Source: Candidatus Zixiibacteriota bacterium
GTDB taxonomy: Bacteria > Zixibacteria > MSB-5A5 > WJJR01 > JAJRUJ01
Assembly: GCA_020051695.1 (NCBI GenBank)
Contig: JAGVQM010000032.1
Coordinates: forward strand, 1 to 59,371
DNA: 59,371 nucleotides
Reading direction: 5' to 3'
The notes below the pieces were generated by a model. That model was not told where the DNA came from and searched no databases. It worked only from the letters and a program-made list of their open reading frames with translations. Below, piece by piece: positions 17,603 through 44,051 of this stretch. The stretch's first letter is position 1. Each line of letters opens with the position of its first letter. Made by a program: the position numbers and the translations under genes.

Positions 17603-18190
17603 TTACTTCACGGACGGGCCCGGCCCCCGCATGTTTTTCCGCATTTCATCCCTGGCCGTCCGGTACAGCGCCAGTTGATCGGCGGTGAGGACCCCGGCCA
17701 ATTGGGTGTCGGTCTGTTCATTGATCTTTTGCATCGCCTCGCGCATTCCCTCGGGGCCGCCGGCCTTGCCCATTAATGTGGCCCGCAGTTCATCACGTTG
17801 TTCCTGCGCGGCGGCGAGGATTTTTTGGACTTCCACTGTCTGGGTTTCGGTAAGCTGCAATTGTGCCAGCAGTTCAGCCATGTAATCACCCGGTCGGCGG
17901 CGGCGCGGAGTGTTCAGCGTTTCGGCATATTTCGCCCGCTGGGCTTCGGTTAAGACCGCCTCGATTTGTTTGTCGATATCCTGTTGCCGCAAATCCGGTT
18001 TGGTCCCCAAGCCGTTATGGCCTTGATTTTCGAATATCTCGCGAATCTGGGCCGCCTGCTCCGTGGTGAGGTCCAGTTGCTTTTGCAATCGGGTGATCTG
18101 CCGGTCCACTCGCGTGGAATCCTGGGCCGACCGGACGTCCGTCGAAAAAGCCAACACCAGCAGGGCCGCGCCGATAATCATTGCTTTCAT
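17603..18190 (-). CDS. Spy/CpxP-like LTXXQ periplasmic protein
   Basis: 195-residue exported protein with a signal peptide (MKAMIIGAALLVLAFSTDVRSA). The mature part is all-helical and has repeated LTxxQ-type motifs: LDLTTEQAAQIREIF, VLTEAQRAKY, LQLTETQTVEVQKIL and VLTADQLALY. Spy and CpxP are envelope-stress chaperones or regulators with the same motif; this protein is longer and its exact role is not set. ATG at 18190 has GGAG 8 bp upstream. It diverges from the ABC/RND operon and might answer to the same envelope stress. Confidence 0.78.
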   Translation of the reverse strand: MKAMIIGAALLVLAFSTDVRSAQDSTRVDRQITRLQKQLDLTTEQAAQIREIFENQGHNGLGTKPDLRQQDIDKQIEAVLTEAQRAKYAETLNTPRRRRPGDYMAELLAQLQLTETQTVEVQKILAAAQEQRDELRATLMGKAGGPEGMREAMQKINEQTDTQLAGVLTADQLALYRTARDEMRKNMRGPGPSVK

Positions 18191-18491
18191 GGAGTATCTC
18201 CGCTGTTTGGATCCCAGTCTTGTCTGACCATCCCTTCCTGCAATTAGATTATACTCGGCAAATGTTGCAAAAGTATGGCAGATTCCGGAGAAATGGTGGC
18301 CGGCCGGTATCTTGACCTGAGCGAATGAAACAATCAAAAACCGTGACCGTCTTAGAAAGGGAAACCCGGCGGGCGGGGAATTATGATTGAAAAATGGAAG
18401 ATTTAGTCTATCTATAGCTGAGGCAGGCCGAGTCGTTCAATGGTCCCGGTGTCCCGGCAGAAAGCCGGATCAGCATATCGGAAAGTGAAAC
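18191..18491. other. Divergent promoter region between LTXXQ gene and ABC/RND operon
   Basis: 301 bp without a gene. A perfect minus-strand TATAAT (18253 to 18248) lies 58 bp before the LTXXQ start, with only a poor -35. The 18380-18420 part is AT-rich (ATTATGATTGAAAAATGG) and probably holds the promoter of the export operon, but I cannot fix a -35/-10 pair. Confidence 0.35.
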
Positions 18492-19403
18492 GTGCAGATT
18501 ACCGTCAGACAACTGAACAAACGCTATCCCGGTGGAAAATACGCCCTGCGGGACATCGATTTGGAGATCGGGGGCGGGATGTTCGGGCTGTTGGGGCCTA
18601 ACGGCGCCGGTAAGACGACGCTGATGCGCATCCTGGTCACGTTGCTGAAACCCAGTTCGGGGGAAGTCCTGGTCAACGGGATGGACCTGCAAAAATACCG
18701 CAGGGAAATCCGCAAGCTGGTGGGTTACCTGCCGCAGGATTTCACCACGTTTTCCAAGCTGGCCGTGTGGGAATTTCTGGATTATGTCGCCGCCCTAAGC
18801 GGCGTGCGGGAAAAAGACATCCGGCGGGACAAAGTCGATCGGCTGCTGGAGGACGTCGGGCTGTTCGATGTCCGTGACCGCCGGGCCGGCAAACTTTCCG
18901 GCGGCATGAAACGCCGGCTGGGCATCGCCCAGACCCTGATCGGCGACCCGCGGATTATGGTTGTCGATGAACCGACGGTCGGTCTTGACCCCGAGGAACG
19001 GCTGCGCTTCAGGAACCTGGTGGCCGATTTGTCGCGGCAGGACATTATTATTATTCTTTCCACTCACATTGTCGGCGACATTTCCTCCACCTGCAGCAAT
19101 GTCGCGTTGCTGAATGCGGGGAAAATTGTCTTTAATGGATCGCCGGATGAACTGGTCGCCGCCGCGGCCGGACACGTCTGGACGATCTCGGCCTTAGACC
19201 ACGAACTGGACCAGTTGCGGGAACGGTATCCGGTGATTTCTTCGGTGCCGATGGAACACGGCTACCAATTGCGGGTGGTGGCCGAACAGGTAACAGGCCG
19301 CGCCGCCGATCCCGCCGATCCCAACCTGGAAGACGCGTACATTTGTTTTATGCAATCGCTCGGGTACGGCGCGGACGTGGATGCGGGGAACGGCGGCTGG
19401 TAA
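18492..19403 (+). CDS. ABC transporter ATP-binding protein
   Basis: 303-residue ABC-2-type ATPase. Walker A GPNGAGKTT is at 35-43, Q-loop in GYLPQDF near 82, signature LSGGM at 135-139, Walker B IMVVDE at 155-160 and the switch His at 192. A C-terminal extension of about 90 residues follows the nucleotide-binding domain. It is paralogous to the ABC part of the 1585-residue protein in the same operon: both read GMFGLxGPNGAGKTTLMR and GYLPQxF at the same places. GTG start; first gene of the operon. Its partner is the permease encoded 13 bp downstream. Confidence 0.9.
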   Translation: MQITVRQLNKRYPGGKYALRDIDLEIGGGMFGLLGPNGAGKTTLMRILVTLLKPSSGEVLVNGMDLQKYRREIRKLVGYLPQDFTTFSKLAVWEFLDYVAALSGVREKDIRRDKVDRLLEDVGLFDVRDRRAGKLSGGMKRRLGIAQTLIGDPRIMVVDEPTVGLDPEERLRFRNLVADLSRQDIIIILSTHIVGDISSTCSNVALLNAGKIVFNGSPDELVAAAAGHVWTISALDHELDQLRERYPVISSVPMEHGYQLRVVAEQVTGRAADPADPNLEDAYICFMQSLGYGADVDAGNGGW

Positions 19404-19416
19404 CCATGGCAGGCAG

Positions 19417-22400
19417 ATGTTGAACCTGTACACGATCTGGACCATCGCCCGCTATGAGGCGAAACTATTGTTTCGCTCATGGGCTTTCAGAATCTTCTCT
19501 TTACTGGGTCTGACCGTCCTGACTGTTATGGACATCGGTGTCGGCACCACTATCGGCCACGCACCGTACTACCTGCATGCATTGTCGGGTTCACTCCCGC
19601 TGATGAACCTCAAACTGCTGAATATCTACCAGGGGATTATTGCCGCTTTCTTAGCCACTGAATTCATTAAGCGCGACCGCCGGCACGACACCAGCCAGGT
19701 GGTGTTTGCCCGGCCGTTTTCCAATGTGGAATACCTGCTGGGCAAAGTGGCGGGGATTCTGACGGTGTTTGCCGCGCTTAACCTGGCGACGCTGCTGGTC
19801 GCCCTGTTTTTTCACGCGTTTTTCTCTTCCTCGGTCTTCACCTGGAAACCATATGTGGTATACGTGATGACCATCAGTGTTCCGACGCTGGTTTTTATGA
19901 TGGGGACCTCTTTCTTACTGGTTTCGCTGCTGCGCAGCCAGGCCGTGGTTTTTGTGCTCATGCTGGGATATTCCCTGCTGGTGCTAATCCTGCTGGGGCC
20001 GTACCTGTTCAACGTTTTCGACAGTTATGCGTTCCATCAGCCGCTGGTCCTCTCGGATATCAGCGGGCTGGGGAATACCGGGGACCTGCTGCTGCTGCGC
20101 GGGGCATACCTGCTTATCGGCATCGGTTTCATGGCCGTGACGGTCTTGCTGTCCCCGCGGCTGCGCCAATCGCCGGTGACCGGCATTGCCTCGGCCATAG
20201 CGGCCCTCATCTTTCTCGGTTCGGCGGCGGCGATGGGCACCGGTTATCTGCGGGGCAAATTTGCCGAGCAGGATTATCGCCGGCAATTGCAGGCCTTGTG
20301 CGCCGCAGTGCGCGGTACCCCGGCAGTCACCGTGGATACCTGCGACATAAGTTTGCAGCACAGCGGGGATCAACTCTCGGCAAGCGTACGCCTCACGGCG
20401 GTAAACAAGACTGCCGCCGCGCTCGATTCCCTGCTGTTTACGCTGAATCCCGGCTTAACCGTCAGTGAGATAACCGACAAGACCGGCGGGCTTTCATTCC
20501 GGCGGGACCAACACCTGCTCTGGTTGAAACCGGACCTGCCGCTGGCGCCGCAGGACACCCTGCGGTTTTCGATGACGTATTCCGGCACACTCCATGAGTC
20601 CTATTGCTACCTGGACGTCGACCGGGAACGGCACGATGTACCCTATCGCGTATGGCTGTACAGCATTCCCAAGCGCTATGCCTTTGTCCAGCCGGGTTAT
20701 CTGCATCTGACGCCCGAAGTCGGCTGGTATCCGCTGGCCGGGCTGCCACCCGGCGCGGCGTTTCCCTCGGCCGCGCCGTATACGTACACCGCCTATACGC
20801 TGGAAGTCAACGTACCTAACGGACAAACCGCGATTACACAAGGTGCGCCGGACAGCGCAAAACACGAAGACGGCGTCCGGCGTTTTCAGCCGGAACATCG
20901 GTTGCCGGGACTATCATTGACGGTCGGCACGTATGATCTGCGGCGCCTGAATGTGGACAGCGTGGAGTATTTGTTGTACACCCTGCCGGGACATGATGGT
21001 TTCCTGCCGTTTTTTGACCAGGTCATCGACACCCTGCCCCGGATAATCCGTGAGACAAAAAACGAATACGAGATCGCGCTGGGGCTGGAATACCCCTACC
21101 CCCGGTTGTCGCTGGTGGAAGTCCCCATTCAGTTCTACAGCTATCGGCGGTTGTGGACGGTGGCGCAGGAGACAGTGCAGCCGCAGATTGTCTATCTTCC
21201 CGAGCTGGGCATGATTTGCGCCGGTACGGATTTTCCACGGATGAAACGGATGGGCACGCGGCGCCAGGAACGCGCCAACCAGGCCGAATCACCAGCCGAA
21301 ATTCAAGCCGGGTATTTTGTGGCGTTCGTCAAGACGGACCTGTTGGGTATGCAAGCCGATCGTTGGAGCATCCGGGGCGAGGCCAATATCGAACCGCGCT
21401 ACGAACTTCTGCCCAATTACCTGTCCTATACGACCCACATCTCCTCCGACCGCTGGCCGGTGCTGAATTACGCGCTTGAATCATACTTTCAAACGCGGGT
21501 CATTCCACCGCCGGAGGGTGACCGCTGGCTGCGCTGGCGGGGTTTGAATGAACGAGAAAAAGCCAATCAAGCCCTGCGTCATCAGCCCCTGGCCGAACTT
21601 TTGGGAACGGCGGCGGTGGACACGGATATTCGCAGCGCCGCGCTGGCGGCCAAAGGCCAGTATCTGTTGTCGTACCTGGAAGCGAACGTCGGGGCTGCGC
21701 AATTCGGCCGACAGATCACCGAATTTCTGGACCGGCGGCGTTTCCATGATATCGCCGACAGTGAATTCATTGATTTTGCCGAGTCACTCACTGAATACGC
21801 TCCTGCGGCATTGATCGATGCCTGGTACAACGATACACTGCTGCCGGGATATCTCATCGATAATATCGAAAGTTATGACGTCATTGATGATGAGTACACG
21901 CGCACCCAGTTGAAATTTAACCTCACGAATCCGACCGCGGTGGCCGGGGTCATTAAAATCGACATCCGCTATCGCCGCCCGGAGACGAATTTCGGACCGC
22001 GGGGAATGGGCGGGCAAAACCAGAGCGATTATACGCAACTGGTCCTCGGCCCGGCCGAATCAATGCTGGAACTTGGCCTGGTGCTCGATCAGCCCCCGGC
22101 CGAAATGACCATCGAAACCTTCGCCTCGCGGAATATCCCCTCGGTAGTCAATATCCCGTTCCGGGAACAAAAACTCCGGCGCTACGAGATACCGTTTGAG
22201 GGCACGCGCGTGACACCGCTTGCGGAAACGACCGCCAAACTCACCAATGAATACCTCGTGGACAATGAAGACGCCGGGTTCGCGGTGCTGTCCGCCACGA
22301 GGGAAAACTGGTTTCGCCGGACACTGTTGAACCTGTTCAATAGCGCCGGCCGGGACGACCGGTATCAGGATGTCCATTTCTGGGACCCGCCGAATAACTG

Positions 22401-22845
22401 GGTGTTGACGACCAACCAGGATTTTTATGGCGCCTTTGTGCACTCCGGGTATTGCAAGCAGACCGGGGACGGCCAAAGCAGGGTCGCCTGGACCGCCGAG
22501 CTGGATGATGCGGGTGATTACGATATTTATTATTATTTCGAAGGCGCATTTGAGGGACCGCGCTGGTTCCGCCAGCAGCGGGGCGGAACCGATAATGACG
22601 GGCAGAAGAATTTTCTGGTGTATCATGATGACGGTGTGGAAGAGCTGCCGTTTGATCTCAACGGTGCAGAACAGGGCTGGAATTATCTGGGTACCTACCG
22701 CCTAGCCGGGGGTAAAAACCGGATCGAACTCAGTGATAAAGACGAGACCGATTTTGTTACCGCCGATGCAGTCAAGTGGGTGAGACGGCAGGCCGTCCGG
22801 CCGCATGGCGGGGACGAGTTCATTAACAGAGGACAAACCAGGTGA
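19417..22845 (+). CDS. ABC-2 permease fused to M1-peptidase-like and golvesin-type domains
   Basis: 1142-residue inner-membrane protein. Residues 1-290 are an ABC-2-type permease with about six or seven helices (FIKRDRRHDTSQVVFARPFSNVEYLLGK is typical). Residues of roughly 300-830 form a large extracytoplasmic part resembling the M1 aminopeptidase fold (YPYPRLSLVEVPIQFYSY...), but I find no HEXXH zinc site, so it is probably not a peptidase. The last 150 residues (about 990-1130) match the golvesin/xanthan-lyase-like binding domain: DDAGDYDIYYYFEGAF, WNYLGTYRLAGG, IELSDKDE, ADAVKWV. The M1-like part may gate or chaperone the exported substrate and the golvesin part may bind glycan. Start ATG 19417 (MLNLYTIW); the next gene begins in its stop codon (GTGA). 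Confidence 0.82.
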   Translation: MLNLYTIWTIARYEAKLLFRSWAFRIFSLLGLTVLTVMDIGVGTTIGHAPYYLHALSGSLPLMNLKLLNIYQGIIAAFLATEFIKRDRRHDTSQVVFARPFSNVEYLLGKVAGILTVFAALNLATLLVALFFHAFFSSSVFTWKPYVVYVMTISVPTLVFMMGTSFLLVSLLRSQAVVFVLMLGYSLLVLILLGPYLFNVFDSYAFHQPLVLSDISGLGNTGDLLLLRGAYLLIGIGFMAVTVLLSPRLRQSPVTGIASAIAALIFLGSAAAMGTGYLRGKFAEQDYRRQLQALCAAVRGTPAVTVDTCDISLQHSGDQLSASVRLTAVNKTAAALDSLLFTLNPGLTVSEITDKTGGLSFRRDQHLLWLKPDLPLAPQDTLRFSMTYSGTLHESYCYLDVDRERHDVPYRVWLYSIPKRYAFVQPGYLHLTPEVGWYPLAGLPPGAAFPSAAPYTYTAYTLEVNVPNGQTAITQGAPDSAKHEDGVRRFQPEHRLPGLSLTVGTYDLRRLNVDSVEYLLYTLPGHDGFLPFFDQVIDTLPRIIRETKNEYEIALGLEYPYPRLSLVEVPIQFYSYRRLWTVAQETVQPQIVYLPELGMICAGTDFPRMKRMGTRRQERANQAESPAEIQAGYFVAFVKTDLLGMQADRWSIRGEANIEPRYELLPNYLSYTTHISSDRWPVLNYALESYFQTRVIPPPEGDRWLRWRGLNEREKANQALRHQPLAELLGTAAVDTDIRSAALAAKGQYLLSYLEANVGAAQFGRQITEFLDRRRFHDIADSEFIDFAESLTEYAPAALIDAWYNDTLLPGYLIDNIESYDVIDDEYTRTQLKFNLTNPTAVAGVIKIDIRYRRPETNFGPRGMGGQNQSDYTQLVLGPAESMLELGLVLDQPPAEMTIETFASRNIPSVVNIPFREQKLRRYEIPFEGTRVTPLAETTAKLTNEYLVDNEDAGFAVLSATRENWFRRTLLNLFNSAGRDDRYQDVHFWDPPNNWVLTTNQDFYGAFVHSGYCKQTGDGQSRVAWTAELDDAGDYDIYYYFEGAFEGPRWFRQQRGGTDNDGQKNFLVYHDDGVEELPFDLNGAEQGWNYLGTYRLAGGKNRIELSDKDETDFVTADAVKWVRRQAVRPHGGDEFINRGQTR

Positions 22846-24314
22846 GAAAAACTCTCATACGGCATATCGCGGGATTCTCGGCTGTCGTCGTGCTCCTGTC
22901 GGCCGGTGCCGCGGCGCCGCTTGCCGCGGAACAACTGACCCTGGAACGGGCGCTGGCCATTGCCTTCGCGCAAAGCCCGACCATGCAAAACGCCGCGCTG
23001 AGTCTGGAAATCAGCGAACGCAACCTGAAAGCACAGCAGGCCTCGCTTAAATCGCAGTTTAACCTGACGATCACCCCGTACGAATACTCCAAAAATCGCG
23101 TCTTCAACGAACTCGTCTCCCAATATAACAACCAGGAACAGACCAGCTCCTCGGCGCAGTTTTCGATCACGCAGCCGATCAAGTGGACCGACGGCACGCT
23201 GAGCGTTGTCGAAAGCGTCGACTGGCGCGAGGCCTCGAGTTCGTTCACCGGGTCGGTCAAGGAAGCCACGTACAATAATTCGCTGTTTTTGCGGTTCAAC
23301 CAGCCGCTGTTCACCTATAACCGGACGATGATGGCGCTCAAAGAACTGCGCCTGGCGCTGGAAAACGCCCAGCTCAACTTTGCGATCCAGAAACTGCAGA
23401 TCGAAAGCCGGGTCACGCAGCAGTTCCTCGATCTGTATTACTCGCAGCGCAGCGTCGAGATCACCCGCGAGGAATACGCCAACGCCACGGAAAGTTATCA
23501 GATCATCGAAAGTAAGGTGGACGCCGGCATCTCGGCACAGGAAGAATTGTTCCAGGCCGACCTGACCCAGGCCAACAGCCGGGCAGCGCTGGAAAACAGC
23601 CAGAACCAGTTCGCCAATGCGCTGGATAATTTCAAGATCCTGCTGGGTGTGCCGCTTGATGCCGAATTCGATGTCGTCGCCGATGTGCAGAAAATGCTGG
23701 TCGATGTCGATTTGAACCTGGCCCTCGAACACGGGCTGCGGCATCGCATGGAACTGCGCCAGCAGGATATCGCCATCGAAAGCGCGCTGAACGATCTGGT
23801 CCGCACCGGTGCGCAAAATGAATTCAAGGGGTCGGTCGACCTGACCTACGGCCTGACCGGGACGAACGAGGAGTTCAGCGAGGTGTATCGGTCGCCGACA
23901 CGGAACCAGTCGGTGGCCCTCAATTTCACCATCCCGTTATTCGACTGGGGCGAGAAAAAGCACCGCCTGGCGGCCAGTGCAGCCCAGGTGGAAAGTCAAC
24001 GGCTGTCGGCGACCGAACAGGAAAAGCAGATTGTCTATGAAATCCGGCAGGCGTTCCGCAGTTTGCAAAACCAGAGGACCCAGATCGAGATCGCCGAGAA
24101 AAATGTAACCAATGCCCGGCTCACGTACGACATCAACCTCGAACGGTATAAAAACGGCGATTTGTCATCCAAAGATATCAGCTTTTACCAGACACAGTTG
24201 TCGCGGGAACAGCTCAATGAAGTGGCGGCGCTGATTAATTACCAGGTGGCGCTGCTGGACTTAAAAATTCGCACACTCTGGGACTTCGCCAGACAGCAAT
24301 CAGTCCTGGAATAA
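22842..24314 (+). CDS. TolC-type outer-membrane efflux protein
   Basis: 490-residue outer-membrane channel with a signal peptide (VVVLLSAGAAAPLAA). It shows the two repeated helical halves of the TolC/OEP family: LTLERALAIAFAQSPTMQNA at the mature N-terminus and a second long coiled region around residues 370-450 with NVTNARLTYDINLERYKNGD. It would be the exit duct for the pumps in this operon. GTG start overlaps the previous stop by 4 bp and has GAGG upstream. Confidence 0.9.
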   Translation: MRKTLIRHIAGFSAVVVLLSAGAAAPLAAEQLTLERALAIAFAQSPTMQNAALSLEISERNLKAQQASLKSQFNLTITPYEYSKNRVFNELVSQYNNQEQTSSSAQFSITQPIKWTDGTLSVVESVDWREASSSFTGSVKEATYNNSLFLRFNQPLFTYNRTMMALKELRLALENAQLNFAIQKLQIESRVTQQFLDLYYSQRSVEITREEYANATESYQIIESKVDAGISAQEELFQADLTQANSRAALENSQNQFANALDNFKILLGVPLDAEFDVVADVQKMLVDVDLNLALEHGLRHRMELRQQDIAIESALNDLVRTGAQNEFKGSVDLTYGLTGTNEEFSEVYRSPTRNQSVALNFTIPLFDWGEKKHRLAASAAQVESQRLSATEQEKQIVYEIRQAFRSLQNQRTQIEIAEKNVTNARLTYDINLERYKNGDLSSKDISFYQTQLSREQLNEVAALINYQVALLDLKIRTLWDFARQQSVLE

Positions 24315-24329
24315 ACGCGGGAGATACGT

Positions 24330-25388
24330 GTGAAACGCAGACTGCTCCTAAGTATAATTTGCCTGGCCGCCCTGCCGCTTTTCGGCTGCGAGGATGAAGG
24401 CCCGAATATCGATCTTGAGTCCTCCATCCCGGTGCGGGTCGAACCGGTCACCCTGAAACCGATTGAGGAATACGCCCTGGCCACCGGCACTGTCGTCGCC
24501 GCGCACGAAGCCACACTCGCCGCGCAGCAATCGGGTTACTATGCCGTGCAGAAAAATCCCCGGACCGGCGCGCCGTTTGCCATGGGTGACCGGGTACTGC
24601 CGGGCGAAACAATTGTCCTGTTGCGCAATCCCGAGTTCGAAAACCAGGTGACTATCGATTCGAAAAAACTGAACTTTGAAATATCCGAGCGCGAATTCGA
24701 AAAACAAAAAAACCTGTACGAAAAAGGCGGGATCACACTCCGCGAACTGACCGACGCCGAGCGGACGTTCATCGACGCCCGCTACAGCTACGACAACGCC
24801 AAACTGCAACTGGCCAAACTGCGGGCGATCGCGCCGTTTGACGGGACCATTGTTGACCTGCCGTATTACAGCCCCAACCAACTGGTCGAGGCAGGGTCGC
24901 TGCTGGTAAAGGTGATGGACTATTCGCAGCTGCACGCCGATGTCACCCTGCCCGGCAGGGAAATGGGCCGTGTCGCGCGCGGCCAGCGCGCGCTGGTCAG
25001 CGGATATAGCGATGAAATAGATACACTAGTCGGTGAGGTGACCCAGGTGTCCCCGGCGCTGGACCCCGACAGCAGGATGTTCAAACTCTCGCTGGCCATC
25101 GCCAACGACAGTCTGCGGTTCAAGCCGGGGATGTTCGTCAAAGTCCATATCGTCGTGGAACAGAAAGACTCGGCGCTGGTCATTCCCAAAAACGTCATTC
25201 TCGACCGCCGGGGGGCCAAGACGGTTTTCGTTGTCGACAAAGGCATCGCGGTGGAACGCCGGTTGGAGACCGGGCTGGCCAACCGGCTGGAGATCGAAGT
25301 GCTCAGCGGCTTGAAAGAAGATGATCGCCTCGTGGTCGAGGGATTCGAGACTTTGCGCAACCTTTCCAAGGTGAAAATTACCAAATAA
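24330..25388 (+). CDS. Lipoprotein membrane-fusion (adaptor) protein
   Basis: 352-residue RND-type periplasmic adaptor. The N-terminus has a lipobox with Cys20 (LPLFGC), so it is anchored in the inner membrane by lipid. A lipoyl-like half motif, a short helical hairpin (FEISEREFEKQKNLYEKGGIT) and a second lipoyl half (LRAIAPFDGTIVDLPYYSPNQLVEAGSLLVKVMD) follow in order, then beta-barrel and membrane-proximal domains. It links the inner-membrane pumps to the TolC protein encoded just before. GTG start. Confidence 0.9.
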   Translation: MKRRLLLSIICLAALPLFGCEDEGPNIDLESSIPVRVEPVTLKPIEEYALATGTVVAAHEATLAAQQSGYYAVQKNPRTGAPFAMGDRVLPGETIVLLRNPEFENQVTIDSKKLNFEISEREFEKQKNLYEKGGITLRELTDAERTFIDARYSYDNAKLQLAKLRAIAPFDGTIVDLPYYSPNQLVEAGSLLVKVMDYSQLHADVTLPGREMGRVARGQRALVSGYSDEIDTLVGEVTQVSPALDPDSRMFKLSLAIANDSLRFKPGMFVKVHIVVEQKDSALVIPKNVILDRRGAKTVFVVDKGIAVERRLETGLANRLEIEVLSGLKEDDRLVVEGFETLRNLSKVKITK

Positions 25389-25409: not shown

Positions 25410-28400
25410 ATGTATACACTCGCGCGTTTTTCGGTTCGCTATCCCACGACCGTGCTGATGCTGGTCCTGGCGATCATCCTCATAGGTTATATTTCCTTCC
25501 AACGACTGAGTGTCGACCTCCTGCCCGATTTGAATAGTCCGCGGTTGTTTGTCGAGATCAAAGCCGGTGAACGACCACCCGAGGAGATGGAACAGCAATT
25601 CGTCACCCAACTGGAGGCCGTGGCTTCGCGGGGGCGAATGGTCGAAAACGTTTCATCGATTTCCCGCGTCGGCCGCGCGCTGATCACCGTCGAGTATTCG
25701 TGGGATGCCGACATGGACGAGGCCTATCTCGATTTGCAGAAGTCCATCGCCGATTTTTCACAAAACAGCGACGCCGATGAGATCACCGTCTCGCAGCACG
25801 ATCCCAACGCGGTGCCGATTGTTGTGGCGCTGTTCTCCCATGCCGAAATCAATGATCTCGATAAACTGCGCCGGACCGCCGAAAACGTCATCCGCAACGA
25901 TTTGATCCGCCTGCCCGGGATTGCGGCAGTGGAAGTCATTGGCGCGCAGCGGCGGGAGCTGGAAGTCAACACTGATGCCTACACGCTCGAGGCGTACGGG
26001 CTGACCATTGACCAGCTGGCGGGGGTTATCCAGAATTCGAACCGCAATATGTCGGGTGGGTCGATCGTGGAGATGGGCCGCCGGTATGTGATCCGGGGGA
26101 TCGGCGAGCTGACCTCGGTGGATGATTTGAATGATCTCATCGTCGCTTACACTCAACCCGCGGCCGGCTCGAGCGGCCGCTCGCCGATTTATCTGCGGGA
26201 AGTGGCTCGGGTCGAATACATGCTTAGCGAACCCGAAAATATTGTCCGGATCAACGGCGAACCCTGCCTGGCGCTGGAGATCTATAAAGAAGCGCGAGTC
26301 AATACTATCGATGCCGCGGCCGCGGCGCGGGAGGAACTGGTCGATCTCGAACAGGCCCTGCCGGGATATACACTGCAGGTGATCCAGGACCAGTCGCGGT
26401 TTGTCGAGGCGGCGGTGACCGAAGTCGAACAGACCGGGATCATCGGGATTATCCTGGCCGTTTTGATATTATATGTCTTTCTGCGGCGCATCGGTGTAAC
26501 CGCGGTGATCAGCATTGCCATTCCGATCTCGATCATTACGACGTTTAACCTGATGTACTTTAATGATCTGTCGTTGAATATCATGACGCTCGGCGGGCTG
26601 GCGCTGGGCGCGGGAATGCTGGTGGATAACGCCATCGTGGTTATGGAAAATATTTTCCGCCATCTCGAACAGGGCGTGCCGCTTACCGAAGCCGCGGTGC
26701 GCGGCGCCGGTGAGGTCGGCGGTGCCATCACCAGTTCGACGTTGACGACCATTGTCGTTTTCCTGCCCATCGTCTATTTGCATGGCGCGGCCGGGGAGTT
26801 ATTCCGGGATCAGGCCTGGACCGTGACTTTTTCGCTGATGGCGTCGTTGGTTGTGGCCCTGGCCGTTGTTCCAATGTTAAGTTCCCGATTATTGAAAAAC
26901 TTGCCGACGCAAATGCCGACCGCGGCAATCAGATTTCCCTGGTATGGCCGTTTGCTGACGGCGATTCTGCACAGGCGAAAACGTGTGGTACTGACTGGAG
27001 CGGCGCTGGTGATCGTGACCGCCCTGCTGGTGCCGCTGGTCGGCAGTGAATTTATGCCGAGCGCCGATGAAGGCGAGTTGTATATCCACTTGTTGCTGCC
27101 CGAGGGCACCAGTCTGGAGCGGACTGCGGGGACCGTCCGCAATCTCGAGGCCGCAATCGCTCAGCGGTTCGGCGGCAGGATTACACACATCTATTCGCGC
27201 ATCGGCCCGGCTAGTACCTCGACGGGGGAACAAGACGCCCTGACCGATGAGAACAGCGCAGTAATTCAACTGGTGCTTAACCGCGACACTGATGTAAAAC
27301 TCGCGGAGATTGTCGCGGGACTGAATTATGAGCTTGCCGCTCTGCCCGATATCGATACGCGGCTGGTCATGCAGCAAACCGCGCTGCAGACCGCGCTGGG
27401 CACCACCTCCGCTCCGCTGGTGGTAGAAATCAAAGGCGAGGACCTGGACGTCCTGGCCGGACTCGCCGAGCAGGTCGCCGAGCGGATACAGACACTGCCG
27501 GAATTAATGAATGTCGAGACCAGCTTCCAGGAAGGACGGCCGGAGATCAATGTGGAGATCGATCGGGTCGTCGCCGCGCAATTTTCACTGACTGCCGCGG
27601 ATATCGGTTCCCAATTGAGTGATGTCCTGGCCGGCCGCGATGCCGGACAAATCCTCAATCAGGGTGAATATTCAAACATCAAACTCCGGCGGCCGGAGGT
27701 TGCCCTGAGTGAGCTGGAGGGGCTCCTGCTGGAATCATCCTCGGGCCGCCGCGTGCGGCTGGACGAAGTGGCCCGGCTGCTCCCCGCCGTTTCACCGCGG
27801 GAGGTGTTGCGCAATAACCAGAACCGGGTGGCCACAGTGACCGCCAACCTTGCCGGAGACGAGCCGTTCGACAAAACGGTGCGCGTCGTGCGACAGGCCA
27901 TCGGAACGATCCCCCTCCCACCGGAATACTCATTCGCGGTCACCGGCCAGGAAAAACTGCGACGGGAGGCCTTCGGCAATCTCGGATTCGCCATGCTGCT
28001 GGCTATTGTCCTGGTGTATATGGTGATGGCCGCACAATTTGAATCATTATTACACCCATTTGTCATTCTGCTGACGATCCCCATGGCGGGGGCGGGAGCG
28101 GTGCTCCTGCTTTTGGTGTCGGGTCTGACCTTTAATATTATGTCGATTATCGGCATTATTCTGCTGGCCGGCATTGCGGTGAACAATGCGATTATTCTAG
28201 TCGATCGGATTAACCAGAACCGCCGGGAAGGCCAGGACCTTGATCAGGCCATTGCCAACGCCGGGCAAATGCGTATCCGCCCGATTCTCATGACCAGCCT
28301 CACCACGATTCTGGCGTTGCTGCCGCTGACCATCGGCCTCGGCGAAGGCGCATCATTGCGGGCGCCAATGGCTGTCGCCGTCATCGGAGGGTTGTGTAGC

Positions 28401-28487
28401 TCCACATTATTAACCCTGGTGGTAATTCCTGCGGCATATCGTCTAATGGCAGGCAAGGTTCCACTCGACACGGCCGCGCCCCGGTAA
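25410..28487 (+). CDS. RND efflux transporter permease (HAE-like)
   Basis: 1025-residue proton-driven inner-membrane pump with the normal RND plan: TM1, a large periplasmic loop, TM2-7, a second loop and TM8-12. TM4 carries LVDNAIVVMEN, in which the second Asp of AcrB is Asn, as in many HAE-type pumps outside Enterobacteria. The C-terminal half has NAIILVDRINQNRREG and MRIRPILMTSLTTILALLPL. Substrate unknown. It sits 6 bp before a second RND gene that is fused to an ABC ATPase; the two RND chains may form hetero-oligomers, as MdtB and MdtC do. Confidence 0.92.
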   Translation: MYTLARFSVRYPTTVLMLVLAIILIGYISFQRLSVDLLPDLNSPRLFVEIKAGERPPEEMEQQFVTQLEAVASRGRMVENVSSISRVGRALITVEYSWDADMDEAYLDLQKSIADFSQNSDADEITVSQHDPNAVPIVVALFSHAEINDLDKLRRTAENVIRNDLIRLPGIAAVEVIGAQRRELEVNTDAYTLEAYGLTIDQLAGVIQNSNRNMSGGSIVEMGRRYVIRGIGELTSVDDLNDLIVAYTQPAAGSSGRSPIYLREVARVEYMLSEPENIVRINGEPCLALEIYKEARVNTIDAAAAAREELVDLEQALPGYTLQVIQDQSRFVEAAVTEVEQTGIIGIILAVLILYVFLRRIGVTAVISIAIPISIITTFNLMYFNDLSLNIMTLGGLALGAGMLVDNAIVVMENIFRHLEQGVPLTEAAVRGAGEVGGAITSSTLTTIVVFLPIVYLHGAAGELFRDQAWTVTFSLMASLVVALAVVPMLSSRLLKNLPTQMPTAAIRFPWYGRLLTAILHRRKRVVLTGAALVIVTALLVPLVGSEFMPSADEGELYIHLLLPEGTSLERTAGTVRNLEAAIAQRFGGRITHIYSRIGPASTSTGEQDALTDENSAVIQLVLNRDTDVKLAEIVAGLNYELAALPDIDTRLVMQQTALQTALGTTSAPLVVEIKGEDLDVLAGLAEQVAERIQTLPELMNVETSFQEGRPEINVEIDRVVAAQFSLTAADIGSQLSDVLAGRDAGQILNQGEYSNIKLRRPEVALSELEGLLLESSSGRRVRLDEVARLLPAVSPREVLRNNQNRVATVTANLAGDEPFDKTVRVVRQAIGTIPLPPEYSFAVTGQEKLRREAFGNLGFAMLLAIVLVYMVMAAQFESLLHPFVILLTIPMAGAGAVLLLLVSGLTFNIMSIIGIILLAGIAVNNAIILVDRINQNRREGQDLDQAIANAGQMRIRPILMTSLTTILALLPLTIGLGEGASLRAPMAVAVIGGLCSSTLLTLVVIPAAYRLMAGKVPLDTAAPR

Positions 28488-28493
28488 AGACCC

Positions 28494-31400
28494 ATGATCA
28501 GTTTTATCATCCGTCGACCTGTGCTCGTTTCCATGATCACGGTCGGATTATGCCTGCTGGGTGTCGTGTCGTATACCCGCCTGCCGGTCGAACTCATTCC
28601 CTACGCCGAATTGCCGATGCTGATTGTCCAGGTTGTCGGCGCCCGCGATGCGGATCCTGCATACATCGAGCAGCAGGGCGTCGTGCCCATCGAAAGCGCC
28701 ATCGCCGGATTAGAGGGCATCGAACGCATCGAATCGTACGTCGATCGGCGGCGGACGATGATTTTTGTGTATTACAACCCAGACACCGACTTGAAGTTTG
28801 CCTATTTGAAATTGCAGCAATGTGTGGCCACGGCGCGCGCGGCCCTGGGCGAAGGTTTCTTTGCCATGGTCTGGAAAATCGACACCGAACAGCTCGCCAA
28901 TCAATTCATGACCTTGCAGGCACGCGGGGAGGGCGACCTGGACCAGATCCGGGAAGTCCTCGACCGCAAAGTTATCCCCGCACTGGAGGCCATTGACGGC
29001 ATCGCCAACGTGGAGGTCTATGGCGGCCGCCGGCGGTCGGTCGAAGTTGTGTTGAACGAGGAAGCCCTGCAGGCCTGCAATCTCACCCCAGCCCAGGTGG
29101 CCGCAAAATTGTCCCAGGGCAGCAATGCGCGACAGTATCTCGGTCAGGTCATTGACGGGCCGAGGGAATACTACGTTAATCTAGTCGCCGAGTACTTTTC
29201 GGTCGCTCAACTTGAGGAGACTATCGTAAAAGATGAAGGTCCGATCCTGCTTAAGCACGTGGCGACAATCGTCGACGGGGGCGCAGAGGAGGAATCAATT
29301 GCCCGAATCAACGGGCTGGAATCAATCACGATCTCGCTGATCCGCGATCAGCAAATCAACCTGCTGAGTTTGTCGCACCAGACCCGCGATGTCATCGAAC
29401 GGTTGAACGAGCAGATTGCCGGAGACGGGCTGGCGCTGGTTATTCAGGATGACAGCGCCGAAGTCATTGAAAATAATATCGATATTATCAAAAGCCTGGC
29501 GCTGGTCGGCGGGATCCTGGCCATCGTGGTCCTCTGGATTTTTCTGCGCAACCTCTCCCTGGTCCTGATCGTAGCCATGGCTATCCCGATCTCGGTGCTG
29601 ATTGCCCTGAACTTTTTCTATGCCGCGGAAGTCAGCATCAACACGCTGACGCTCGTCGGCCTCGCGATCGCCATCGGAATGCTGCTGGACAACAGCGTTG
29701 TCGTGCTGGAAAACATTCACCGGCTGCTGGGACGGGGCAAAAGTGTCCACGAGGCGGTAGTCACCGGCACCGGCGAGGTCGGTCGGGCGATCGTTGCGGC
29801 GACCCTGACCACGGTCTGCGTGTTTGCGCCGTTTGTGTTCTCCGATAACTTCCTGGTCCAGACCCTCGGCCGCCATATCGGCGTGTCGATTATATCGACG
29901 CTGCTGGTATCGCTGGCTGTCGCGTTTATTTTGATTCCGGTCAGCGCGAACTACGTCCTGTCACGCCGCCCCGATTCATCGATTGCAAGCATCAGCGCCT
30001 TGTCGCGCAATAACCGGCTGCTGCAGATTTACACGTTACTGCTGAAATCCTGTCTGCGTTTTCCGGCGCGCACCGTGATTATCGGCCTGACGGTATTTTT
30101 TCTCAGTGTCATTATCTGTCTGGCGGTCAGCATTAATGTCCCCGAGGAAGTCGAACTGAACCGTTTCAACCTCTACGCCACGATGCCGTCCGGGACCACA
30201 CTGGAATCAGCCGACGAACAGGTCCGCGAGATGGACAACCGGCTGGAGGAAATCGCCGAAGTCGCCGAGCGGCTGGCCAACATCTCTGAAGACGATGTCA
30301 CCCTGACTTTCACACTGGCGGATGATTACGAGGACCTTGCCGGTCGCGACCTCGGCACGATCAAAACAGATATCTACGACAAGCTGAGTACGGCGTTTCC
30401 CCGTGTCGATTTTTCCTATGATGAGCCGGCAGCCAATGTGCGGTATCGCGGCGGCGGTGGCGGCGGAATGGGCGGCGGAGTCGGACGCGCGTTCGGACGG
30501 TTATTGGGAATCGGGACCAGCGAAGAACGCGTCATCGTCCGCGGGCAGGACCTCAACATCCTGCGCGCCATCGCCGACGACATCAAGTTCAACATTGATC
30601 AACTGCAGACCGTCAGCCGGTCGAGTCTGAATGTCAGCGAAAGCCAGCCGGGGATCGACCTGGTTTTCGACAAGGCCGCCTTAAGCCATTTTAATGTTAC
30701 CACCCAGGCGATCACCGCCGAACTCTCCTCGTTTCAGGATGAATTTTCATCCGGCGTGACCATGAAACAGGGTGCGGAGGAAATCGAGGTCATCCTCAAA
30801 AGCGACAACTCGGCTGACCGCACCGCCGACGACCTGCGGGAGCTTGTCGTCCCCACCGCCGCCGGCGGGACGATGCCGCTGCTGCAGCTGGCCCGGATGG
30901 TCTACACCGACGGGTACTCGAGCATCTATCGGGAAAATCAGGAAAAACAGGTGGAAGTTATCTTCAGTTTCGGCGCGGACGTCACCGAATCATCGCAATT
31001 GCTGGCCGGCGCCCGCGTACAGATTGAACAGATTGTCGACGGCATCGCCCCGCCCCCCGGCGTCGCCATCGAGATCGCCTACGATGAGACCGACCTGTCG
31101 GACTTTTATTTTCTGATTTTTGCGGCCGTCATTTTAATCTACATGATCCTGGCCTCGGTCTTTGAATCGCTGATCACCCCGCTGGCGATGATGTTTACCA
31201 TCCCGCTGGCCACGGTCGGTGCCTTTCTCGGATTGATCCTCACCGGCAACTCGGTGTTGAATGCCAATGTGCTGGTCGGGTTTTTGATCCTGCTGGGCGT
31301 GGTCGTCAACAACGGCATCATTCTTATCGATTATTCACGGCTGCTCCGCCGGCGGAATTTCCGTCCCGCGCGCGCGCTGATTACCGCGGGCCAGGCCCGT

Positions 31401-33251
31401 GTCCGGCCGATTCTGATCACGGCGATCACCACGGTGCTGGGCATGCTGCCGCTGGCCATGGGCAAAGTCGAATACGTGGCCCGGATCGGCGCGCCGTTTG
31501 CAATTACCGTCATCGGCGGTCTGATCGCCGGCACATTGTTTACCCTGATCGTCGTGCCCACGGTCTCGTTCGGCATCGGGAACACGCTGGCCTGGTGGTA
31601 CAAGCTTGACTGGAAAACTAAAATTGTGCAGTTTGGCGCGCTGGCGGGCGGCTTCTGGTTGATCTACGAAAACATCGATTCCCTGCTCTGGCGGGGCGCC
31701 AATGCTACAGCGCTGGTCCTGGCTGTCCCGGCGCTGACCTATTTCATCCAGGTCAGTCTGCGGCGCAGCAGCGCCACGGTAATCCCGGCGGGTGAGCCGA
31801 TTACCATCACCGTCCGCAACGTCGTCAAGATATATGACGACTATTCACGGTTTGTGCGCGAATGGCGCAAGGGCGAACGGCAGCATGCCCGCCGGTTGCG
31901 CAACGGAATCGTCAAAAAACACCTCGGGCCAATCCACCAACTTTGGCAATTGCCGTTATATATATTTCATTTCTACTATACGTTCATATATGTCAGCGGC
32001 GGTTTCTGGGTGTTCGTATTCTCCGTTGGTTTTTATCTGTACACCCTGCATTTAGCGCGGCCGTTGCTACTGCCCCCGGAAAAGGCGGCGGGAGCGGAGC
32101 GGCACCGGCGGTTGCGCGCAGCCGCCTTTCGCGTGATCTATTGGGGCGGCCCACTGGCCATCCTTGTCTGGTACCAACTCCAATGGGACAACCCGATACT
32201 GGTGGCCGCCATCGGAGCAACCTGGTATCTGGCCGTTGCCACGTACAATACATCGCAAAGACTGTACCGTGATAAGGTGGATATCAACCGCATCACCGGC
32301 CGGTTCAAACGAGTCAGAAAGACATTTTATCGTCTGGTAAAAATCACCCCGCTGATCGGGAAAAAGAAAGTGCCGTTTCGCGCACTCCACGGGGTTTCGA
32401 TGGAAATCGAAAGTGGGATGTTTGGGCTGGTCGGGCCTAATGGCGCGGGCAAGACGACACTGATGCGGGTGATCTGCGGCATCCTGCGGCAAAGCCAGGG
32501 GACGGTGCGGTTCAATGACATCGACCTGGACCGGCAGCGGGAAGAATTACAATCGCTCATCGGGTACCTGCCGCAGGAATTCGGCACCTACGATAACATG
32601 AGCGCGTTCCGCTTCCTCGATTACCAGGCCATCCTGAAGGGTATGTGGGATCCGGAACAGCGCCGGGACGCAGTCGAGCGGGCAATTGCCGGGGTACATC
32701 TCGGTGAAAACCGGGACATCAGGATTAAGGCCTTTTCCGGCGGGATGAAACAGCGCGTCGGCATCGCGCAAACGCTGTTGCATTTGCCCCGCGTACTGGT
32801 CGTCGATGAACCGACTGCCGGGCTGGATCCGCGGGAGCGTATCCGCTTCCGCAACCTGCTTTCCGGTCTGGCCCGGGAACGCATTGTGATCTTTTCCACG
32901 CATATCATTGAGGATGTTTCCTCCTCCTGCAACCGGCTGGCCGTACTCGACGACGGGAAAGTCAAGTTCCTCGGTTCACCGCGGGAGATGGTTGATGCCA
33001 CGCGCGGGTGCGTCTGGCAGGCGAAAATCGATGAGGAAAACTTTGGCAATTTCCGGAAGACCGGCTGGGTCGTGCACCATATGTGGGACGGCGGCCGGAT
33101 CCGGGTACGCGTCCTTGCGGCGAACAAACCGCTGCCGGAGGCGATTGCCGTCACTCCGACACTTGAGGATTCATATATGTGGCTGCTGGGGCGGGAAAAA
33201 CGACCCGGGGCAGACAAAGGACCGGACCATGTCGACATTCCACAACACTGA
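28494..33251 (+). CDS. RND permease fused to an ABC ATPase domain
   Basis: A single open frame of 1585 residues. Residues 1 to about 1040 are a complete RND pump: TM4 motif LLDNSVVVLEN with D399, C-terminal NNGIILIDYSRLLRRR and RVRPILITAITTVLGMLPLAMG. Residues about 1040-1095 add two more hydrophobic segments. An ABC ATPase then begins with a first strand (ITITVRNVVKIY, about 1102-1113), is interrupted by about 180 residues with four hydrophobic segments (YIFHFYYTFIYV, FWVFVFSVGFYLYTL and two later), and resumes at KKVPFRALHGVSMEIESGMF. Walker A GPNGAGKTT starts at 1314, signature FSGGMKQR near 1414, Walker B VLVVDEPT near 1434, His of STHII near 1465. All ATPase motifs look intact. The ABC part is a paralogue of the first gene of the operon. 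The end overlaps the next permease gene by 23 bp. Confidence 0.9.
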   Translation: MISFIIRRPVLVSMITVGLCLLGVVSYTRLPVELIPYAELPMLIVQVVGARDADPAYIEQQGVVPIESAIAGLEGIERIESYVDRRRTMIFVYYNPDTDLKFAYLKLQQCVATARAALGEGFFAMVWKIDTEQLANQFMTLQARGEGDLDQIREVLDRKVIPALEAIDGIANVEVYGGRRRSVEVVLNEEALQACNLTPAQVAAKLSQGSNARQYLGQVIDGPREYYVNLVAEYFSVAQLEETIVKDEGPILLKHVATIVDGGAEEESIARINGLESITISLIRDQQINLLSLSHQTRDVIERLNEQIAGDGLALVIQDDSAEVIENNIDIIKSLALVGGILAIVVLWIFLRNLSLVLIVAMAIPISVLIALNFFYAAEVSINTLTLVGLAIAIGMLLDNSVVVLENIHRLLGRGKSVHEAVVTGTGEVGRAIVAATLTTVCVFAPFVFSDNFLVQTLGRHIGVSIISTLLVSLAVAFILIPVSANYVLSRRPDSSIASISALSRNNRLLQIYTLLLKSCLRFPARTVIIGLTVFFLSVIICLAVSINVPEEVELNRFNLYATMPSGTTLESADEQVREMDNRLEEIAEVAERLANISEDDVTLTFTLADDYEDLAGRDLGTIKTDIYDKLSTAFPRVDFSYDEPAANVRYRGGGGGGMGGGVGRAFGRLLGIGTSEERVIVRGQDLNILRAIADDIKFNIDQLQTVSRSSLNVSESQPGIDLVFDKAALSHFNVTTQAITAELSSFQDEFSSGVTMKQGAEEIEVILKSDNSADRTADDLRELVVPTAAGGTMPLLQLARMVYTDGYSSIYRENQEKQVEVIFSFGADVTESSQLLAGARVQIEQIVDGIAPPPGVAIEIAYDETDLSDFYFLIFAAVILIYMILASVFESLITPLAMMFTIPLATVGAFLGLILTGNSVLNANVLVGFLILLGVVVNNGIILIDYSRLLRRRNFRPARALITAGQARVRPILITAITTVLGMLPLAMGKVEYVARIGAPFAITVIGGLIAGTLFTLIVVPTVSFGIGNTLAWWYKLDWKTKIVQFGALAGGFWLIYENIDSLLWRGANATALVLAVPALTYFIQVSLRRSSATVIPAGEPITITVRNVVKIYDDYSRFVREWRKGERQHARRLRNGIVKKHLGPIHQLWQLPLYIFHFYYTFIYVSGGFWVFVFSVGFYLYTLHLARPLLLPPEKAAGAERHRRLRAAAFRVIYWGGPLAILVWYQLQWDNPILVAAIGATWYLAVATYNTSQRLYRDKVDINRITGRFKRVRKTFYRLVKITPLIGKKKVPFRALHGVSMEIESGMFGLVGPNGAGKTTLMRVICGILRQSQGTVRFNDIDLDRQREELQSLIGYLPQEFGTYDNMSAFRFLDYQAILKGMWDPEQRRDAVERAIAGVHLGENRDIRIKAFSGGMKQRVGIAQTLLHLPRVLVVDEPTAGLDPRERIRFRNLLSGLARERIVIFSTHIIEDVSSSCNRLAVLDDGKVKFLGSPREMVDATRGCVWQAKIDEENFGNFRKTGWVVHHMWDGGRIRVRVLAANKPLPEAIAVTPTLEDSYMWLLGREKRPGADKGPDHVDIPQH

Positions 33252-33951
33252 AAAGAATATCCGCACGCTGTCGGCTTTCATCCGGTATAACGCCGCCAAT
33301 ATTTTCGCGGGACGATTTATCTATTTTCTGGTTTTTGCTGTTGCCTTGTTTCTCACGATTGTCGTGATCAACACTTTTGAGGAAGACACACCACCGACCG
33401 CTGAGGGAATATTTTATTTTTTGCTGACCCCGGGGGTCCTGCTGGTGTTTTACCCCTCAGCGTATGTCATTCAAAGCGACGCCGACGCGCGGATGATCGA
33501 GACCCTGTTTGGTATCCCCGATTACCGCTACAAAGTCTGGCTGGCCCGCAACCTGACCCAATACCTTGTGGTCGCCGCCCTGCTGGTGCTGCTGGCGCTG
33601 TTCTGCCGGGCGGCACTGGCCGATTTTGGGGTCGGTGCGATGGTGTTTCACCTGATGTTCCCCATTGTGTTTCTGGGGAGTCTGGGCTTTATGACTTCGA
33701 CAATCACGCGCAGCGGCAACGGCACTGCGGCGGTGATGGTTGTGCTGGTCATGTTCTTCTGGATTGCCGCCGAACCGCTGCACGGCAGTAGGTGGAACCT
33801 GTTTCACAATCCCTTTGCCCGGGTGGACCAGTATGAGGTCGTACTCTGGGCCGAAACCACCTTGTACAACAGGATATATATCCTGCTCGGCTCGGCGGTA
33901 GCCATGATGTTCGGTTTGTTGCGCCTGCAACACCGCGAAAAATTCATTTAA
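33229..33951 (+). CDS. ABC-2-type permease
   Basis: 240-residue protein with six membrane helices (for example FLVFAVALFLTIVVINTF, FYFLLTPGVLLVFYPSAYVI and YLVVAALLVLLALF) and the ABC-2 coupling-type sequence SDADARMIETLFGIPDYRYKVWLAR. The real start is ATG 33229 (MSTFHNTEKN) with AAAGGA upstream, inside the end of the RND-ABC gene; the frame continues upstream but there is only the shadow of that gene. It is the obvious membrane partner for the fused ABC domain. Last gene of the operon. Confidence 0.8.
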   Translation: MSTFHNTEKNIRTLSAFIRYNAANIFAGRFIYFLVFAVALFLTIVVINTFEEDTPPTAEGIFYFLLTPGVLLVFYPSAYVIQSDADARMIETLFGIPDYRYKVWLARNLTQYLVVAALLVLLALFCRAALADFGVGAMVFHLMFPIVFLGSLGFMTSTITRSGNGTAAVMVVLVMFFWIAAEPLHGSRWNLFHNPFARVDQYEVVLWAETTLYNRIYILLGSAVAMMFGLLRLQHREKFI

Positions 33952-42961: not shown

Positions 42962-44038
42962 ATGTTAGCACAGCAAAAAGGTCTCACCGCATTTTGGGGC
43001 TGCTGCGCCGCCGCGTTGTTGCTGGCCGCCGTCAGCCTGACCGCTGCCGTGGCGGAGGTCGAGCGGGAAAACACGACGACCACCACGCACATCGATTCGG
43101 GCCACCGTCAATCCGATACGCCTGGTCATGTCGAAAACGATCATTCGGCAAACGACATCCTTGATGAAAATGAGGAAGATGATGACCATGACGGACATGA
43201 AGACGAAGGTATCATCGAGATTACCCCGGCGGCCGTCGAGATGGCCGGCATCACGCTGGCCACAGCAGACCGGGGACGAATCAGCCAGGCCATCAACCTG
43301 CCGGGTGAAGTCGGGTTCGACGAAGACCGGCTGGTCCACATCACGCCCCGCTTCGGCGGGATTGCCCGAGAGACCCGGTTCCGTGTTGGTGATTATGTCA
43401 ATGCCGGTGACACCGTCGCAATTGTCGAAAGTAACGAGAGTTTGAATACCTATGCCATTACCGCGCTCATCTCCGGCCGGATCATTGATCGTCATGTCAC
43501 CCTTGGTGAATTCATTTCCGAGGAACACTGCATCTACACCATCGCCGATCTGTCTGACGTCTGGGTAAACCTTGCCGTGTATCCGCGTGATGCCGACCGT
43601 GTGAAACCCGGGCAACAGGTCGTCATCAGGGCGATCGGGTCGGAACACACGGCGGAAGGGATGATCCAGTACGTGACCCCGATCCTGAACGTTACGACGC
43701 GAAGCATCACCGCCCGCGTGGTGCTGCCCAATCCCGACGACACCTGGCGTCCCGGCACTTTCGTCCAGGCCCGGGTGACCACCGGGTCGGGAGAGGAAGG
43801 ACTGCTCGTCGATAACCACGCCATCCAGATGCTGGACGATGAGAACATCGTCTTTGTCTCTGACGGGCCGGGGCGCTATCGGCCGGTCGCAGTAACCGTC
43901 GGGGAACGTGATGACCGTTTCACTGAAATCCTGTCCGGGCTGGAGGAGGGGACAAAACATGTCGTCTCCGGGGCCTTTGAGCTGAAAGCTAAAATTGTCA
44001 CCAGTTCCCTGGGTGGTCACGCCGGGCACGGCCACTAA
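42962..44038 (+). CDS. Metal efflux adaptor protein (CzcB/CusB-like)
   Basis: 358-residue periplasmic membrane-fusion protein. After the N-terminal anchor comes a His/Asp/Glu-rich segment (HRQSDTPGHVENDHSAND to EDDDHDGHEDEG) and the C-terminus ends GGHAGHGH; both are probable metal-binding ends. The core has the short-hairpin CzcB fold: AGITLATADRGRISQAINLPGEV and YVNAGDTVAIVESNE, then ALISGRIIDRHVTLGEF. It bridges pump and channel and may deliver metal. AAGGA precedes the ATG. Confidence 0.9.
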   Translation: MLAQQKGLTAFWGCCAAALLLAAVSLTAAVAEVERENTTTTTHIDSGHRQSDTPGHVENDHSANDILDENEEDDDHDGHEDEGIIEITPAAVEMAGITLATADRGRISQAINLPGEVGFDEDRLVHITPRFGGIARETRFRVGDYVNAGDTVAIVESNESLNTYAITALISGRIIDRHVTLGEFISEEHCIYTIADLSDVWVNLAVYPRDADRVKPGQQVVIRAIGSEHTAEGMIQYVTPILNVTTRSITARVVLPNPDDTWRPGTFVQARVTTGSGEEGLLVDNHAIQMLDDENIVFVSDGPGRYRPVAVTVGERDDRFTEILSGLEEGTKHVVSGAFELKAKIVTSSLGGHAGHGH

Positions 44039-44051
44039 AAGGAGACGATAC

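Follow-up and report, generated by a model that had tools for sequence, protein, structure and literature searches.

A single gene in the DNA analysed here (the window: 59,371 nucleotides of contig JAGVQM010000032.1, from a Candidatus Zixiibacteriota bacterium) encodes a full-length AcrB-type RND transporter and a complete ABC ATPase as one polypeptide, and the ATPase domain is itself split by a membrane module. We consider it probable, from the sequences of this gene, its neighbours and its homologues, that their products form a single exporter spanning the envelope, with a covalent tie between a heterodimeric ABC-2 transporter and a hetero-oligomeric RND/adaptor/TolC conduit.

The fusion gene occupies positions 28494..33251 of the forward strand as a single open frame of 1585 codons, giving one protein of 1585 aa. 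Each of the remaining five frames across this interval is interrupted by 22-88 stops, with no open stretch longer than 212 codons. From the N to the C terminus, the protein consists of an AcrB-type RND transporter (RND2, residues 1-1026), two extra transmembrane (TM) helices and a complete ABC ATPase (NBD2), laid out as follows:

28494..31571, + strand: RND2 part of the fusion, residues 1-1026 (Pfam; relay positions D399, N400, N939, R969, T976)
31605..31772, + strand: two additional TM helices after RND TM12, residues ~1038-1093 (hydropathy; model)
31797..31835, + strand: NBD2 first strand and A-loop tyrosine, PITITVRNVVKIY, residues 1102-1114 (alignment with homologues and stand-alone NBD1; predicted strand 1105-1114)
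31836..32375, + strand: insertion in NBD2, residues 1115-1294 (gap length, model helices, hydropathy)
32376..33251, + strand: rest of NBD2, residues 1295-1585 (Pfam, motifs, Foldseek)
32433-32459, 32733-32759, 32793-32828 and 32892-32915, + strand: NBD2 Walker A, signature, Walker B and switch motif, in that order

The RND part matches Pfam ACR_tran in two stretches (E 2e-158), and its residues 4-1024 match NF033617 with a score under the cut-off of that family; the ATPase part matches ABC_tran at residues 1298-1442 (E 2.8e-28). Within the RND part, the TM4 motif GMLLDNSVVV lies at residues 395-404 and the TM10 motif GVVVNNGIIL at 935-944. The ATPase carries Walker A (GPNGAGKTT, 1314-1322), signature (FSGGMKQRV, 1414-1422), Walker B (VLVVDEPTAGLD, 1434-1445) and the switch His (FSTH, 1467-1470). 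Third-position GC stays between 0.64 and 0.76 over RND, junction, insertion and NBD, and is thus gene-like throughout. The initial annotation of this DNA had described an uninterrupted 1585-codon frame joining an RND pump to an ABC ATPase, which the frame, the Pfam matches and the fused homologues bear out, and the four ATPase motifs that it reported as intact are all present in the fused NBD. Its mention of full RND motifs holds for the RND domain and fails for the proton relay, where two of the three AcrB relay residues are replaced.

The fusion recurs well beyond the window. Within the same phylum, 11 of 132 genomes contain it whole or as a fragment, and relatives occur in more than 40 genomes outside this phylum, amounting to dozens of species in more than one phylum. 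A search with the joined region, as the initial annotation had proposed, thus found fused relatives inside and outside the phylum, and the fusion is conserved in related genomes, where that annotation had allowed that it might be missing. The 386 relatives of genome G275 include 34 with the insert-bearing form and 2 with a short form that lacks the membrane insertion, and the short form is also found in 8 of the 290 genomes around G274. A contig scan with a single-sequence query, which reaches close relatives only, gave a fused relative in the MAG JANXXP010000086.1 ('Bacteroidetes bacterium'). In all homologues having the NBD, the ATPase motifs are intact. It is hardly credible, given this recurrence, that an assembly error or a chance read-through has joined two genes: independent genomes, among them G069 and G404 with a single contig each, carry intact fusions of ~1565-1590 aa, which rules out an artefact. 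The one observation in its favour is a fusion in the MAG G185 (L028, 4995-9733) that is split into two overlapping frames within the membrane insertion, whether through an error in sequencing or because the gene is naturally split.

The two halves of the protein have not been found apart. In the phylum search no unfused RND2 orthologue was detected, all sequences at at least 59% identity being fused or ending at a contig edge, and the next matches below these are ordinary RNDs at 27-31%. An unfused insert-bearing NBD2 was likewise not found, as shorter frames stop at contig edges. A 475-aa frame in G001 was considered as a stand-alone insert-bearing ATPase and rejected; it starts at a contig edge, and its RND part ends another contig. 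The plasmid collection gave no match to the fusion. These results bear on a reading in which two transporters merely share an operon and the fusion just equalises their amounts. Although both halves have recognisable stand-alone relatives, this reading is quite improbable given the lack of unfused orthologues of either kind in our searches, and simple co-expression leaves the membrane module that splits the NBD unexplained.

ABC NBDs typically, though not by definition, have the A-loop strand immediately ahead of the Walker A sheet. NBD2 lacks this usual direct spacing and has four predicted TM helices in between, so that 199 residues separate the A-loop Tyr from Walker A, compared with 22 in the stand-alone NBD1 of the same operon and 61 in the short variant of G274. 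The insertion comprises 180 residues (1115-1294), with its predicted membrane helices at ~1146-1258. The strand opening NBD2, ITITVRNVVKIY, ends at Tyr1114 and is the usual start for an ABC NBD; in the alignment, it is present in all homologues covering that stretch, for example as VFIKISNLTKIYDD and FTIRIKNLTKIYGA. Hydropathy averaged over 14 homologues supports both the two helices after TM12 and the insertion helices. The structure was modelled as a monomer fragment of the fusion. A first version (residues 1001-1585, 10 sequences) reached a pLDDT of 68, with predicted helices at 40-60 and 64-93 in model numbering, and was replaced by a deeper AlphaFold2 version (16 sequences, mean pLDDT 82) in which residues 1105-1114 are predicted to form a ten-residue strand, followed by four long helices and the NBD core. 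Since this strand needs a partner and the NBD is the only other beta-structure in the fragment, it most likely belongs to the NBD sheet. Foldseek matches of the NBD2 model are ABC NBDs (4yer, NosF, LptB and the ABCA family). They cover the NBD core only and give no residue ranges, as Foldseek cannot align across such a large insertion; the insertion is therefore placed by the sequence alignment and by the strand prediction rather than by superposition. The four-helix module has no sequence match in Pfam or the PDB. The helix count of 12+2+4 places the NBD in the cytoplasm, as required. To our knowledge, no ABC NBD with a transmembrane insertion at this place has been described.

The fusion is part of a seven-part set on the forward strand, in the order NBD1, TMD1 (ABC-2 permease 1), TolC, adaptor, RND1, RND2:NBD2 and TMD2 (permease 2). 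The genes around the fusion are:

18492..19403, + strand: NBD1, stand-alone ABC ATPase, 303 aa, GTG start (Pfam ABC_tran E 2.4e-31)
19381..22845, + strand: TMD1, ABC-2 type permease (ABC2_membrane_2 E 1.1e-6, above the Pfam cut-off; Golvesin_C E 4.4e-11)
22842..24314, + strand: TolC-type outer-membrane channel (Pfam OEP E 8.6e-47)
24330..25388, + strand: periplasmic adaptor (membrane fusion protein) of RND type (TIGR01730 RND_mfp E 4.6e-52, above cut-off)
25410..28487, + strand: RND1, separate AcrB-type subunit, 1025 aa (ACR_tran E 2.8e-225; relay D, N, N, R, T)
33229..33951, + strand: TMD2, small membrane protein, 240 aa, probable ABC-2 permease (conserved next gene; 23 nt overlap with the fusion)

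NBD1 is a paralogue of the fused NBD2 (~46% identical) with intact Walker A, signature, Walker B and His, and its nearest relatives are NBD1 genes in operons of this type. TMD1 has a large, weakly M1-peptidase-like extracytoplasmic part and a C-terminal golvesin-type domain. Its homologues give a weak Peptidase_M1 match (E 0.00034-0.0024), and the HEXXH zinc site is absent in all eight of those examined. Because the homologues align from residue 13, the true start of TMD1 may be at 19417. TMD2 lies in a frame given as 32908-33951 in the mechanical ORF list and has an ATG at 33229, in agreement with the permease gene that the initial annotation had seen overlapping the 3′ end of the fusion. TMD2 homologues match ABC2_membrane_2 under the cut-off in 6 of 10 cases (best E 0.0015), a profile comparison of TMD2 with the permease of the second variant gave an E of 0.0057 and a probability of 6%, and a profile comparison with TMD1 gave no match. 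We weakly assign TMD2, on this sequence evidence, as a probable ABC-2 permease. Among the operon proteins, there was no match to FtsX or MacB_PCD, and ABC2_membrane matches were found instead. The initial annotation lacked the membrane module in the NBD, the partner RND, the second NBD, the second permease and the seven-part set. Upstream of the operon, a divergent gene (17603-18337, - strand) has a weak match, below cut-off, to LTXXQ/Spy-type periplasmic chaperones (E 0.0015), which could hint at a link to envelope stress.

The window shares the complete set in this order with G069, G070, G108, G110, G275, G320 and G512, the position of NBD1 in G069, G070 and G110 coming from a search separate from that for the remaining operon genes. 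The second, short variant (G274, G474) has the order adaptor-NBD1-TMD2-RND1-TMD1-RND2:NBD2-TolC. As it keeps all seven parts in a reshuffled arrangement, the set is conserved and not just the order. The operons of G404, G390 and G437 are without a TolC gene, which weighs against the exporter model proposed below, and in operons of this type at loci L072, L073 and L076 no TolC gene separates TMD1 from the adaptor. In G446 (L075, 3201-9479 and 13564-19899), the fusion and TMD1 frames are N-terminally extended by ~540 and ~1000 residues; an RND1 gene is not listed between adaptor and fusion at this locus, and the MAG is listed at 10% contamination.

In the NBD tree, the fused NBD2 of both variants forms one clade (support 99/97), and a separate origin for the NBD2 of the second variant, with the insert-bearing NBD2 held together with NBD1, is rejected (AU p 0.0125). 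In the RND tree, which was built by a quick method with SH-aLRT support only, RND1, RND2 and RND1+RND2 each fall on one side of a branch, with support of 99, 100 and 99. Taken together, the trees indicate that RND1 and RND2 are close paralogues and that a single origin of the fusion is most likely. Across 19 loci, the pairwise distances for RND1, RND2 and NBD2 correlate (r 0.90-0.97), which shows joint inheritance of the sequences and is not proof of contact.

In AcrB, the relay triad is D407, D408 and K940, with R971 and T978 associated (PMC8277102). In both RND1 and RND2 of the window, the triad is reduced to D407, with Asn at the positions of D408 and K940. Across RND1 and RND2 sequences, the equivalents of D407, R971 and T978 are invariant (38/38), K940 is replaced by Asn in 37 and by Ser in the other, and Asn or Ser takes the place of D408 in all but one. 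An intermediate relay state is seen in RND1 of a distant relative (L006, 1745-4885), which keeps D-D in TM4 and has Ser for K940. L032 and L033, which are ordinary RND pumps encoded by the same genome, keep D-D-K. Other RND proteins of the class (L062, L066, L067) are also without K940; its loss alone is therefore no proof of ATP drive, being suggestive and not unique. The window also contains a further, separate RND gene (43995-47153, + strand) that has D, A and L at the relay positions and is 28% identical to RND1. With a single Asp left of the triad in RND1 and in RND2, proton drive cannot be taken for granted, and the earlier proposal that ATP hydrolysis and proton-driven transport are joined in one machine is not established. 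By contrast with the relay, the motifs of the operon ATPases make their use of ATP well supported.

A possible reading, though short of an even chance, is an ATP-driven RND machine that has given up the standard proton relay and in which the fused, membrane-anchored, split ABC ATPase would power the conformational cycle. The RND half may instead run on protons through D399 alone while the ABC half uses ATP, with both working in turn on a single substrate. This alternative differs from the favoured model in energy only, shares its architecture and is a real possibility, if short of an even chance. It gains from the Asp, Arg and Thr kept in all 38 sequences and from the precedent of SecA, whose ATP-driven translocation is aided by the proton-driven RND protein SecDF (PMC8277102), but it has to accommodate the loss of the K940 equivalent in 38/38 sequences and of the D408 equivalent in all but one, both residues belonging to the AcrB triad (PMC8277102). 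The RND subunits could also have ceased to pump and act as a static conduit or scaffold in the periplasm, docking the adaptor and TolC onto the ABC exporter, which would fit the partial loss of relay residues, the intact ATPase and the adaptor and TolC genes of the operon. We judge this unlikely, as the invariance of the remaining Asp, Arg and Thr in 38 sequences and the full-length RND domain (ACR_tran) in both RND1 and RND2 suggest that conformational cycling still matters.

In the exporter that we favour, the fusion protein would be the linking subunit. NBD2, carried on RND2, would pair with the stand-alone NBD1 and drive the ABC-2 transporter that TMD1 and TMD2 would form as a heterodimer, and RND2 would join RND1 in a hetero-oligomeric RND assembly, perhaps of two RND1 to one RND2, as in MdtB2C, a precedent for a 2:1 hetero-oligomer (PMC4338810). 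This stoichiometry is favoured because three NBDs on an RND trimer would pair unevenly, whereas in a 2:1 assembly a lone NBD2 would pair with one NBD1, giving a single ABC transporter. The ABC part may lift the substrate across or out of the inner membrane, with RND, adaptor and TolC taking it through the outer membrane. The four-helix module of NBD2 would fix the ATPase to the membrane beside the RND helices and is likely to act as a mechanical link. We infer complex formation, coupling, stoichiometry, direction of transport and ATP as the source of much or all of the energy. We would guess, from the large extracytoplasmic part of TMD1, that the substrate is bulky and either an envelope lipid or peptide-like.

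Tripartite exporters are classed as ABC, RND or MFS according to their inner-membrane motor. The exporter proposed here would be both ABC and RND by covalent fusion, in many species and more than one phylum. If ATP does drive the RND cycle, the exporter would be categorically new, adding a further way to energise a tripartite exporter and an ATPase domain with its own transmembrane insertion. It offers a natural system for testing whether ATP can drive, gate or assist an RND cycle, and for learning how an ABC ATPase tolerates a membrane module between A-loop and Walker A. It also illustrates that the automatic label 'efflux RND permease' can hide a composite machine.

The initial annotation knew of no described transporter of this kind, and we found no description of an RND-ABC fusion in the open-access literature searched. 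Each part belongs to a known family, and their combination matches no system in the open-access papers searched. MdtABC-TolC of E. coli resembles this operon in pairing two RND paralogues with a single adaptor and a TolC channel, and among PDB sequences MdtB matches RND2 best; however, that system is without an ABC ATPase or ABC permease, and MdtB keeps D-D and K. AcrAB-TolC shares the RND domain and the adaptor, RND and TolC layout, but is a homotrimer with a complete proton triad and no ATPase. MacAB-TolC likewise couples an ABC ATPase to an adaptor and TolC, with the NBD joined to a membrane protein, but the MacB NBD is N-terminal on its own permease (PMC8277102) and there is no RND, while the operon here has ABC-2-like permeases. 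Among ABC-2 systems (DrrAB, GldA, NosDFY), the resemblance extends to adjoining ABC-2 permease genes and a NosF-like fold, with NBD1 and NBD2 scoring best against DrrA and GldA models, but NBD2 here has a membrane insertion and an RND fusion. In SecA with SecDF, an ATPase shares its export path with a protein of the RND superfamily (PMC8277102), but the two are separate proteins, the ATPase is unrelated, and there is no adaptor or TolC.
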